Positions 18,180 through 22,207 of a DNA stretch of 64,000 bases are shown here, piece after piece; the stretch's first letter is position 1, and every line of letters begins with the position of its first letter. The translations under genes and the position numbers were made by a program. Source of the stretch: Aureimonas pseudogalii (GTDB lineage: Bacteria > Pseudomonadota > Alphaproteobacteria > Rhizobiales > Rhizobiaceae); contig NZ_JACIEK010000003.1 in the NCBI RefSeq assembly GCF_014196835.1, positions 62,001 to 126,000 of the forward strand. Reading direction: 5' to 3'. A model generated the notes under the pieces. The model had not been told where the DNA came from and ran no database searches. It saw nothing but the letters and a program-made list of their open reading frames with translations.

Positions 18180-19223
18180 TCAGGGCTCGCCAGTGCAGAA
18201 GCGCCGGCGCCCGCTCTCGTCGCGATAGGTGCCGAGCGACGCATCGAAATCGGGGTAGCGGGCGACGCAACCGCGCAGCCACTCCTCCGTCCACGGCTCC
18301 GCACCCGTCGCGGCCGGTGTCGCGGCTGCCGGGGGTGCGGCGGTGGCAGCGCTGGCCGTGCGCTCGGCCGGCGTCGGCGTCGGCACCCGCTCGGGCCCGG
18401 CCGCCGGCGAACGAGCGGGCGCCCGCATCAATTCGTCGGCCGGCGCGGGCGATCCCTCGTCGGGATAGATCAGCGCCTGACGGTCCTCGGCCGGCAATTC
18501 GTCAAAGGGTGTTCCATTTTGCACCGGCGCGAGCGCGGCCTCGTCCTTATGGGATGTGGAACCCGGCCGATCGAAACCGGGTGCGATCCGTATGATCTTC
18601 GTGGCGCCCGAATAGACGACGTCGAGCCCGTCGCGTCCGTAGGGGCGGCGATCGAGCCGGGCGGATGCGACGTCGATGATCCGTGCGTCGCTTCCTGCCT
18701 CGCGGGATTTCATGAGCGTCGGCGGCGGCGGCTCGGCGGCCGGTGCGCTGATCACCACGAAGGACGATCCGCCGCCGATCCCCGACGTTCCGTAGAACGA
18801 GCCGCGCTCGACCGCCCCTGGTGAGAAACGCACCCCGGTTTCAGCCCCATCATACCGGCGGAGAGCGTCCTGTCGTCGCTGCGAGCTGGCCTCGGAGCGG
18901 CCGCCTCGGCGCGCGGCATCGATCTCGTCGAGCGTGCCACGCTCCCAATTCCGATCGCTCCGGTATGGCAGCGGCTCCGCCCAGTGGTTGCCGCCCGAAA
19001 CGGTCCGAATGGATCCACCGCGAAGGTCGGAAGCGGCGGAGAACGGCTCCTGATGGCTCTGCGGATGAATGTGCGTCACCGAGCCCGTCCGCTCGTATCC
19101 GACGTCCCGGTCATAGGCATGGGAAAACGACCCGCCCGAGACCGCGCCGCCTTCGACGGCCGAGGCGGGAACGGCGCCGACACAGAGCCCGGTACCGAGA
19201 ATGGCGACGGAAAGGAGTCTCAT
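18180..19223 (-). CDS. Secreted protein with C-terminal BA14K-like domain
   Basis: A 347-residue exported protein. A signal peptide MRLLSVAILGTGLCVGAVPASA is followed by a long low-complexity region rich in Gly, Ser, Arg, Ala and Pro. The last 35 residues (EEWLRGCVARYPDFDASLGT, then YRDESGRRRFC) match the layout of the BA14K-like repeat seen in rhizobial and Brucella envelope proteins (W-x-x-x-C-x-x-x-Y-x-x-F-x-x-x-x-G-T-Y with a closing Cys). Brucella BA14K is an immunoreactive lectin-like protein. The middle part is unrecognised. A perfect TTAA-N7-TTAA site lies 16 bases upstream of the start. Confidence 0.8.
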   Translation of the reverse strand: MRLLSVAILGTGLCVGAVPASAVEGGAVSGGSFSHAYDRDVGYERTGSVTHIHPQSHQEPFSAASDLRGGSIRTVSGGNHWAEPLPYRSDRNWERGTLDEIDAARRGGRSEASSQRRQDALRRYDGAETGVRFSPGAVERGSFYGTSGIGGGSSFVVISAPAAEPPPPTLMKSREAGSDARIIDVASARLDRRPYGRDGLDVVYSGATKIIRIAPGFDRPGSTSHKDEAALAPVQNGTPFDELPAEDRQALIYPDEGSPAPADELMRAPARSPAAGPERVPTPTPAERTASAATAAPPAAATPAATGAEPWTEEWLRGCVARYPDFDASLGTYRDESGRRRFCTGEP

Positions 19224-20630: not shown

Positions 20631-20966
20631 ATGAACCGTACCGCCATCATCGCCGCCGCTTTCGCCTTTGCCGCGACGCCCGGTCTCGCGCAGTCGCCGA
20701 ATCCGGCTTCGACCACGCCGGTCATTCCGGAGGCGAGCACCGCCGCCCCCGAAAGTCCCGATCGCATGGGAGCAGCCGCGTCCACCGGCGACACCACGCA
20801 GTCGCCCGGAACGGACGGGCTGATCGGCACCGACGCCAGCGCCACGAGCTCGACGTCCCGGGATGGAACGAGCGTGCCGACGCAGGGGCTGAGCGAAAGC
20901 GAGGCGGCAACGGCGACCGAGACGACACCATCCGGCGGGATCGTGCCCGGCCAGAGCTCGAACTGA
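20631..20966 (+). CDS. Small exported protein ending in SGGIVPGQ-SSN
   Basis: A 111-residue protein with a clear signal peptide (MNRTAIIAAAFAFAATPGLAQ, about 21 residues). The mature part is a Ser/Thr/Ala/Pro/Gly-rich, probably disordered chain without Cys. The C-terminus TPSGGIVPGQSSN shares SGG[I/L]VPGQ plus three residues with two neighbours. Its function is unknown and no family is recognised. It is the first of four consecutive small exported proteins on this strand. Confidence 0.7.
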   Translation: MNRTAIIAAAFAFAATPGLAQSPNPASTTPVIPEASTAAPESPDRMGAAASTGDTTQSPGTDGLIGTDASATSSTSRDGTSVPTQGLSESEAATATETTPSGGIVPGQSSN

Positions 20967-21113
20967 TCCGTTTCGTTCGATCGCCTTCGCATGCCTTCGC
21001 GGCGGCGATCGTCGTGACGATCGATGGCCGCGTCTCACTCACCGTCCGGCGAGGAACGGAGCGGCTCCCGAACCGTTGATCGCGCAGTTCATTTCAGAGG
21101 AACAGAAGACATC

Positions 21114-21455
21114 ATGTCGAGAACACTCGCCGCCCTTGCCGTTGCGGCTCTCGTCGGCTCTGCCGCCCCGACCTTCGCGCAGGATTCAGCGCCCATTCCG
21201 CAGGGGGGCCAGGTGGTGGAACTCGGACAGGGCACGGATGTGGCCCCGCGGTACAACAACCTGCCGGGCGTCGGCCTCGAGCCGTCTTCCTCCAGCCGCA
21301 GCACGAGCCCGAGGGGGCCGGGCGGGCTTTCCAACGGTATCGGAGCCTATGGTGTAATGGCGCCTGACGCTTCCGGCACCGCCGGCAACGCGACGACCCG
21401 GATTCCCGGCGCCATCCCCGACACGAATAGCGGCATCGGCATTCCCCTCAACTGA
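21114..21455 (+). CDS. Small exported protein of unknown function
   Basis: A 113-residue protein with signal peptide MSRTLAALAVAALVGSAAPTFAQ. The mature part is rich in Gly, Ser, Pro and Asn (NNLPGVGLEPSSSSRSTSPRG) and ends SGIGIPLN, so it lacks the SGGxVPGQ ending of its neighbours. The base composition is normal for the window. A nine-bp hairpin follows 22 bases after the stop. Confidence 0.7.
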   Translation: MSRTLAALAVAALVGSAAPTFAQDSAPIPQGGQVVELGQGTDVAPRYNNLPGVGLEPSSSSRSTSPRGPGGLSNGIGAYGVMAPDASGTAGNATTRIPGAIPDTNSGIGIPLN

Positions 21456-21476
21456 TGGTCACTTCCCGGCCATTTC

Positions 21477-21498
21477 GTCCGGACCTTTCGGTCCGGAC
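21477..21498 (+). terminator. Hairpin between small secreted-protein genes
   Basis: GTCCGGACC (21477-21485) pairs perfectly with GGTCCGGAC (21490-21498) around a TTTC loop. There is no T-run, so termination would be weak. It may instead mark an mRNA end or a processing site. Confidence 0.45.
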
Positions 21499-21519
21499 CT
21501 ACTCACGGATGATCTGGCG

Positions 21520-21663
21520 ATGACGCGTTCAACTCTGATGACCGTCGCTGCATTGGTCTTTGCGCTCACCGGGTGCCAGCTTGAGCGACAACGCGGCGTG
21601 CTGCCAACGGGAACGGGGCAGACCTCGTCGGGCGGTCTCGTGCCGGGACAAGTCGAACACTGA
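21520..21663 (+). CDS. Tiny lipoprotein ending in SGGLVPGQ-VEH
   Basis: A 47-residue frame. The N-terminus MTRSTLMTVAALVFALTGC is a lipoprotein signal with lipobox LTGC, so the mature peptide has only about 29 residues and would be anchored to a membrane by a lipidated Cys. It ends TSSGGLVPGQVEH, matching its neighbours in SGG[I/L]VPGQ plus three residues. It is short, but the lipobox and shared ending both argue that it is real. Function unknown. Confidence 0.65.
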   Translation: MTRSTLMTVAALVFALTGCQLERQRGVLPTGTGQTSSGGLVPGQVEH

Positions 21664-21916
21664 GCGACGGCATGCAGATGGCAACGCGCCGGGCCGCGTA
21701 GCGATGTGCTTCCAACAGCATGCGACACGACATCGTTTCGGCTGACGCGAACCGCATCGACCATGGGGAGGGGCTTCGATTTCAGGGCCCTTTTTCCGTC
21801 CGGTGACGGCGCTCGCACCGCCGCCCTCTGGGGGAACCGGGGGGAAAGCATGGCCGTTGAAGGCACAACGCGCTGCCGCGATACGCCGGCGCCCCCTCCA
21901 TCGAAAGCCAGACGCC

Positions 21917-22207
21917 ATGAAGACCAAGATCACGCTCGCTGCCGTTCTGCTCTCGACGGCTCCCGTCTTCGCGCAAGGCGCGGGCGTCACTCTCTCGTCA
22001 CGCGAGCGCGCGGTCGCCACCGAACGTCACGTGCTGCCGGACGGGCGCGTCGTGCTTCTTCCCGCCAATGGCGGCCTGCCGTTCCTGTTCGGTCTCGGCG
22101 ATGCCTATGGCAAGCCGTCGAGCGTGCCGGTGGTGCGTGGCACCACGCCCTCCGTGCTCGCCTCCACGCCCTCCGGCGGTCTGGTGCCCGGCCAGACGCC
22201 CGAGTAG
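21917..22207 (+). CDS. Small exported protein ending in SGGLVPGQ-TPE
   Basis: A 96-residue protein with signal peptide MKTKITLAAVLLSTAPVFAQ. The mature part contains HVLPDGRVVLLPANGGLPFL and ends TPSGGLVPGQTPE, the same C-terminal motif as the genes at 20631 and 21520. It has no Cys and no recognised domain. The 253 bases before it hold no further gene that could be supported. Confidence 0.7.
   Translation: MKTKITLAAVLLSTAPVFAQGAGVTLSSRERAVATERHVLPDGRVVLLPANGGLPFLFGLGDAYGKPSSVPVVRGTTPSVLASTPSGGLVPGQTPE

Follow-up and report, generated by a model that had tools for sequence, protein, structure and literature searches.

C-terminal tags on exported proteins have repeatedly led to anchoring enzymes, namely exosortase, rhombosortase and myxosortase. 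In PEP-CTERM and MYXO-CTERM signals a transmembrane segment follows the motif, MYXO-CTERM having an invariant Cys as well, and in the Braun lipoprotein Lpp, a very small lipoprotein, the C-terminal Lys is joined to peptidoglycan. The tail described here is comparable to each of these. It is like GlyGly-CTERM/rhombosortase in being a short C-terminal region (the GlyGly-CTERM motif is often SGGS) on exported proteins that are usually homologous only there, several per genome, and in having been discovered by genome comparison (PMC3237569). LPXTG/sortase signals are a further likeness, in that exported proteins have a short conserved motif close to the C-terminus (PMC3237569). With PEP-CTERM/exosortase (PMC1569441) and MYXO-CTERM/myxosortase (PMC11980579) the tail shares its modular nature, as a C-terminal tag carried by many exported proteins within a lineage.

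The window, by which we mean the whole 64-kb stretch of DNA analysed, carries four small genes in the order A-X-B-C. An earlier note had reported that three of these ORFs share a C-terminal ending, that two of the products have Sec-type signals and one a lipobox, and that a fourth exported protein without the motif lies among them. All of this was confirmed, the shared C-terminal tail included, as listed here.

20631..20966, + strand: type A, a Ser/Thr/Ala-rich low-complexity exported protein of 111 aa with a C-terminal tag; tag-conserving orthologues in other Aureimonas
20925..20963, + strand: tag of A, TPSGGIVPGQSSN
21053..21077, + strand: second match to the EcfG promoter consensus, 61 bases upstream of X
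21114..21455, + strand: exported protein X, untagged; 6 of 7 tag-less Aureimonas genomes keep it at this locus
21520..21663, + strand: type B, a tiny lipoprotein of 47 aa, whose mature part of 29 aa consists of the lipid-modified Cys, a short linker and the tag
21622..21660, + strand: tag of B, TSSGGLVPGQVEH
21833..21858, + strand: match to the EcfG promoter consensus (GGAAC-N16/17-CGTT), 84 bases upstream of C
21917..22207, + strand: type C, an exported protein of 96 aa; a conserved family found, among the searched genomes, in tag-bearing ones only
22166..22204, + strand: tag of C, TPSGGLVPGQTPE

The Sec signal peptides of A and C and the lipobox of B (LTGC) were read from the N-termini; here, as for all tagged proteins in this study, export signals were assigned by eye and not with a signal-peptide program. 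A, B, C and X had no Pfam or NCBIfam match above the curated cut-offs and no PADLOC match at E≤0.01.

A DNA pattern for GG-x-VPGQ matched the 5.0-Mb window genome four times on the forward reading, and neither the reverse nor the backward-control pattern matched at all. Each of the four matches lies exactly three codons before the stop of a small ORF with an export signal. The fourth, on another contig (locus L004), belongs to a Ser/Thr-rich exported protein with the tail TPSGGVVPGQTPE; the ORFs flanking this gene resemble, by eye, GapR/DUF2312 and MurQ. A profile of the last 30 residues retrieved the same four proteins from the window genome, with the next match being noise at E 0.82. When all fetched stretches were searched with the 30-residue profile, 93 distinct tails were obtained, a set which includes one unrelated chance match (L123) and one contig-end fragment of a C gene (L151), and in which the automatic A, B and C labels are rough. 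From these the tag was redefined as 13 residues, T-P-S-x-G-[L/I/V]-[V/I]-P-G-Q-x-x-x-COOH, mostly ending in xP[E/R/N/D]. Over the 93 tails the per-position counts are T 85, P 90 and S 86; after x, G 93; then L 45, I 40, V 7 and R 1; V 90 and I 3; and finally P 92, G 91 and Q 93. Residue x is Gly in 76 tails, and otherwise Asn, Cys, Ser, Ala, Asp, Glu or His. Gln is followed by three residues in 89 of the 93 tails, and by 4, 8, 10 and 10 in the remainder; within the 89, the second residue after Gln is Pro in 64 and the third is usually Glu, Arg, Asn or Asp. The motif as first noted, SGG[I/L]VPGQ followed by exactly three residues, therefore holds as a shared tail, yet the conserved unit is longer (TPSxG[LIV]VPGQ plus three), its first G is variable, and the spacing of three predominates without being absolute. 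Two further, weakly scoring B proteins end in TPSRGIVPAQTPQ (three residues after Gln) and TPSDGIIPGQTPSETAL (eight after Gln). The 30-residue profile relaxes the original pattern, which matters because the initial retrieval demanded the motif: under it the second G and the Q stayed constant, whereas drift was seen at x, in the hydrophobic pair and in the three final residues.

The earlier note had also observed that the codons of the shared peptide differ between copies, which is true of the window and extends to free variation over the 93 tails. At the conserved positions all four codons are used for Thr, Pro, Gly and Val and both for Gln; for Ser all four TCN codons and no AGY codons are used, a tally in which some loci had been retrieved by a pattern that demanded TCN. 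Since synonymous codons vary freely at conserved positions, selection acts on the peptide sequence of the tag, a conclusion supported by these comparisons.

The earlier note had weighed the tag against a motif equally common away from C-termini or in cytosolic proteins, and against ORFs lacking conservation. Among 119 distinct ORF readings from 297 genomes of the GTDB family, the motif lies exactly three residues from the C-terminus in 25, and no other distance occurs more than three times. Outside the tagged set the matches are scattered over other distances; some fall in ordinary proteins, transporters for instance, and many are in frames judged non-coding by eye, so that the conditions named in the note do not refute the tag. 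The tagged proteins are conserved across eight GTDB genera, and a chance or wrong-frame artefact was rejected on the distance distribution, the codon variety and this conservation.

The tag has a narrow range. A longer pattern that includes the stop codon, applied to one genome each for 84,980 species, returned 46 stretches. Of these, 39 come from Aureimonas, Aurantimonas, Jiella, Fulvimarina and Mangrovicella, genera that NCBI assigns to Aurantimonadaceae, a family of soil, plant and sea bacteria. The remaining seven were single matches elsewhere, for none of which a small exported ORF was shown, and convincing tags were thus found, among named genomes, only in Aurantimonadaceae. Profile searches at E≤0.001 recovered tags from 14 of the 21 genomes in the window's genus and, among 394 genomes of the family, from 19 that belong to seven further genera. 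Another of the 24 family-search genomes with a match, G094, was discarded as a chance match in a long frame. At the level of the order (397 genomes), the C profile had convincing matches in two genomes, G000 and G020; weak matches (E 5e-4 to 8e-3) in seven other genomes and at a further site in G000 were rejected as unrelated proteins or implausible frames. The tag profile, run over 385 genomes of the class, identified the window genome only, two others matching away from C-termini, and a search for C on plasmids found none. At least two different tagged proteins occur in 32 of the 33 tag-bearing genomes, mostly two to four per genome.

The proteins that carry the tag are of several kinds. Type A proteins are Ser/Thr/Ala-rich, of low complexity and have a Sec signal. 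Type B lipoproteins have 41-74 aa, with a mature part of 25-35 residues (56 in one), and show little recognisable similarity between genera outside the tag; in three of them (L153, L156, L157) the lipobox was read by eye, a script having chosen an earlier Cys. Type C proteins, of about 100 aa, can be aligned throughout and have conserved RE, GR, several Gly and NGxTPS before the tag. B usually adjoins C, while A is found either at that locus, as in the window, or elsewhere. In several Aureimonas, C is also adjoined by a small basic exported protein (TYRSDVRQYRQ..., L126:735-1049 and homologues) with neither tag nor Pfam match. Among 63 motif-selected proteins the bodies of A, B and C had no mutual similarity at E≤0.01, in a BLAST comparison that is low-powered for the short B, and within types the identity of the tags was 0.87-0.92 versus 0.26-0.51 for the aligned bodies. 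The earlier description of the proteins as otherwise different agrees with this, if weakly for B. These comparisons support a tag found on apparently non-homologous exported proteins, and restricted to exported ones.

Two larger carriers extend this range. One DUF4142 protein (E 3.3e-37) and one DUF7282 protein (2.9e-24), both above the Pfam cut-off, have a linker plus tag; they are encoded at Aurantimonas loci L140 and L131 and have 192-231 aa. The tag was found at 2 of 30 DUF4142 loci from 40 genomes, both in Aurantimonas, and was absent from 28 readings, four of which (L264, L268-L270) are truncated or in a neighbouring frame; at L268 it was absent in a separate reading too. A Mangrovicella DUF4142 protein (L271, genome G042) has a Ser/Thr-rich extension without the tag, and may represent a step between the untagged and tagged forms. 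Since the tail is present at 2 of 30 DUF4142 loci and absent from the homologues, it was gained or lost as a module. This bears on the idea that A, B and C descend from one gene of which the tail alone is still alike, or that the tail is structural, with no tag function in either case. All three are small and exported, A, B and C often share one locus, and the last 30 residues of the tagged DUF4142 and DUF7282 proteins resemble some A proteins even upstream of the tag. However, a tail kept while all else was lost still requires selection on the tail, the DUF4142 distribution points to gain or loss, and the mature B sequence besides the tag is too small for a merely structural one; we regard common descent without tag function as very unlikely. 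The larger carriers bear equally on a second idea. In Phr-type systems pheromone peptides are cut from the C-terminal end of exported precursors, and tiny exported proteins with a conserved C-terminal peptide, several per genome, would suit a similar release of the last 8-13 residues, with the three variable residues providing specificity. A tag on proteins of 192-231 aa speaks against such precursors, as does the fact that no receptor-like gene stood out among the annotated conserved neighbours, and a released signalling peptide is the most improbable of the readings considered here.

In the described tripartite signals (LPXTG, PEP-CTERM, GlyGly-CTERM and MYXO-CTERM), a motif is shared by non-homologous exported proteins, as it appears to be here, and is followed by a helix and basic residues, for which the three residues after the motif in 89 of 93 tails, and ten at most, leave no room. 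The GlyGly-CTERM signal comprises motif, transmembrane helix and basic cluster (PMC3237569), whereas here three residues usually follow the motif and its first G is variable. Unlike LPXTG proteins, the tagged proteins have no LPXTG, helix or basic tail, and no Pfam sortase was found in 40 genomes; the consensus has neither the PEP motif nor, after the motif, the helix of PEP-CTERM, and neither the Cys nor the transmembrane segment of MYXO-CTERM. Like Lpp, B is a very small lipoprotein whose C-terminus may be its functional end, but B has no conserved C-terminal Lys (3 of 89 tails end in Lys) and its mature form is about half the size. In full-text open-access literature, outside which most subscription papers lie, GGLVPGQ, GGIVPGQ and GGVVPGQ were not found; the VPGQ matches listed were all on other subjects as judged by title or start of abstract, and the open-access literature on C-terminal sorting signals yielded the known tripartite systems and no signal of this form. 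On these searches and the family libraries the tag seems to be previously undescribed, in line with the earlier note, whose author knew of no such signal.

Covalent processing has to be considered first among such signals. An enzyme could cut in or after the motif (for instance after Gly-Gly, or after Gln with release of three residues) and join the protein, as a sortase does, to peptidoglycan or another acceptor; B would then be a lipoprotein that connects the outer membrane with the wall. A short motif at a near-fixed distance from the C-terminus of non-homologous exported proteins is the logic by which GlyGly-CTERM was identified (PMC3237569), and variable last residues suit a leaving group. 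Cleavage after Gly-Gly fits poorly with a first G that is Gly in 76 of 93 tails. Since there is no helix and no basic tail after the motif in any of the 93 tails, and since a Pfam sortase (PF04203) was found in none of the 33 tag-bearing genomes and in none of the 7 tag-less ones (it was present in 1 of 6 other family genomes and in 3 of 14 control genomes), a sortase-type enzyme is less likely. The Pfam sortase was rejected as the reader of the tag on its absence from all 40 genomes, and processing or covalent anchoring as a whole we consider unlikely.

The earlier note had suggested a sorting, processing or recognition tag. The C-terminal position, the near-fixed spacing and the exported, apparently non-homologous carriers bear out a tag, and this reading is well supported by comparative evidence; sorting, processing or recognition itself we infer from that pattern, in which something outside the cytoplasm presumably recognises the tag. 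With confidence evenly divided for and against, we propose that TPSxG[LIV]VPGQxxx-COOH serves, once a protein has been exported, as a modular docking tag at the C-terminus, bound by a putative shared envelope partner. Different small proteins would leave the cytoplasm by the Sec or lipoprotein pathway, as their N-termini suggest by eye, each displaying one common, presumably unstructured C-terminal tail to which one common envelope partner would bind. B, being in effect a lipid anchor, a short linker and a tag, would pin the partner to a membrane, and its anatomy fits a partner-tethering peptide better than a cargo needing delivery. In E. coli the residue after the lipoprotein Cys, Asp or not, decides the membrane; since none of 19 B proteins has Asp there, the membrane would by that rule be the outer one. 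A would bring a disordered spacer to the common partner, and the DUF4142 and DUF7282 versions a folded domain. That the conserved Gln is nearly always followed by three residues suggests a binding site that measures the distance to the free C-terminus, a feature against which the few tails with 4, 8 or 10 residues after Gln count. A tag with neither membrane helix nor basic tail therefore points to a reader of another kind than the known anchoring enzymes, and the small tagged set with its natural tag-less relatives should make that reader a tractable target; the mature B proteins, about 30 residues and mostly linker and tag, come close to a ready-made synthetic probe.

Type C is the obvious place to look for the reader. 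It was present in 33 of 33 tag-bearing genomes, the matches always extending to the last or last-but-one profile position, and in 0 of 7 tag-less Aureimonas, in which profile searches found neither tag nor C. In the tag-less genome G682 a C match at E 0.0035 covers 39 body positions, with no tagged ORF in the fetched stretch. At the tag-less locus of the seven genomes, tblastn gave no match to A, B or C at E 0.001, a weak result for the short B; ilvE, gloB and cspA were together in all seven, and X was found in six of the seven. A crude screen for small exported ORFs at these loci likewise gave X in six, and two further untagged ORFs (L346 and L352). Trees were built from IlvE of 29 genomes, together with GloB for 27; in these the tag-less genomes fall into one or two clades nested among the tag-bearing ones, some nodes being weakly supported. 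The tag was thus lost once or twice, not seven times, and the perfect co-occurrence of C and tag rests on one or two events. If A-X-B-C is ancestral, losing one block of neighbouring genes does not account for the tag-less state, because X was kept in six of seven.

C, as obligatory companion, would be the first candidate for the partner or an adaptor, since it is present in every tag-bearing genome examined. We tentatively suggest, with somewhat less than even confidence, that the whole represents an undescribed form of Gram-negative envelope recognition, in which a 13-residue soluble tag exchanged among unrelated exported proteins is presented at a membrane by a minimal lipoprotein and read, with no membrane segment or sortase-type enzyme, by C itself or by something dependent on C. 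A special case of the docking model makes C the receptor: its body would bind tags, its own tail would fill a neighbour's site, and C would form a polymer or complex in which A, B and the DUF proteins serve as end pieces or anchors. C alone among the components occurs in all tag-bearing genomes, even in G037, which has C only; it is absent from the seven tag-less genomes, and B usually adjoins it. An AF2 model of C, however, had a mean pLDDT of 50.7, with no confident fold and no groove for a tag visible; the tail was below 50 within a model poor throughout. A PDB search by sequence gave three unconvincing matches at E 0.35-0.62. We think it doubtful that C is the receptor in this sense. G037, placed basally, has two copies of C with identical tails (L357 and L358, on two contigs), either a duplication or an assembly effect; with C alone, a shared tag is not needed there, which counts against the docking model.

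Two other candidates for a partner were rejected. X, kept in six of seven tag-less genomes, is for that reason probably no part of the tag system; it has relatives in Aureimonas and Aurantimonas with a common motif, read by eye, GPGGL.NG.GA. A conserved upstream neighbour (alignment A4) is not general, being present in 15 of 33 tag-bearing genomes and in 0 of 21 of the window's genus. An exported family with the pattern GWxAGPEADA...FDC..C..LSCLYA and no Pfam match was seen in 15 of the 33 genomes with a tag; in Jiella, Fulvimarina and some Aurantimonas its gene precedes B and C or lies between them (examples are L144:6403-6975, L150:556-1149 and L117:5726-6298).

Promoter sequences offered a further view of C. 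EcfG is the general stress response sigma factor, and no sigma-70 promoters were found in the A-X-B-C region. The EcfG promoter consensus is given as GGAAC-N16-CGTT in Rhizobium etli (PMC3892343) and GGAAC-N17-20-GTT in Sphingomonas (PMC6599016). GGAAC-N16/17-CGTT was found upstream of 9 of 12 distinct Aureimonas C genes, orthologues which are not independent, though their spacers differ. Over all rows, again with orthologues that are not independent, this strict consensus preceded 9 of the 33 C genes, 1 of the 32 A genes and none of the 23 B genes, compared with none of 88 on the reverse strand and roughly 1 percent of random windows; the looser GGAAC-N15-18-GTT preceded 10 C, 2 A and 0 B genes, against 2 of 88 on the reverse strand and 1.8 percent of random windows. 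The 64-kb window holds two strict matches, one preceding X and one preceding C, and 13 of 100 shuffles reach two, so that the two matches are not unusual by number alone. X has an EcfG-like match in some other genomes, two tag-less ones included. To judge from these promoter matches, C in Aureimonas, and X in some genomes, appear to belong to the EcfG general stress response. Elsewhere in the window, positions 18180-19223 of the minus strand encode an exported protein with a weakly BA14K-like C-terminus (E 2.3e-4, below the cut-off), which is conserved next to cspA, gloB and ilvE in many relatives.
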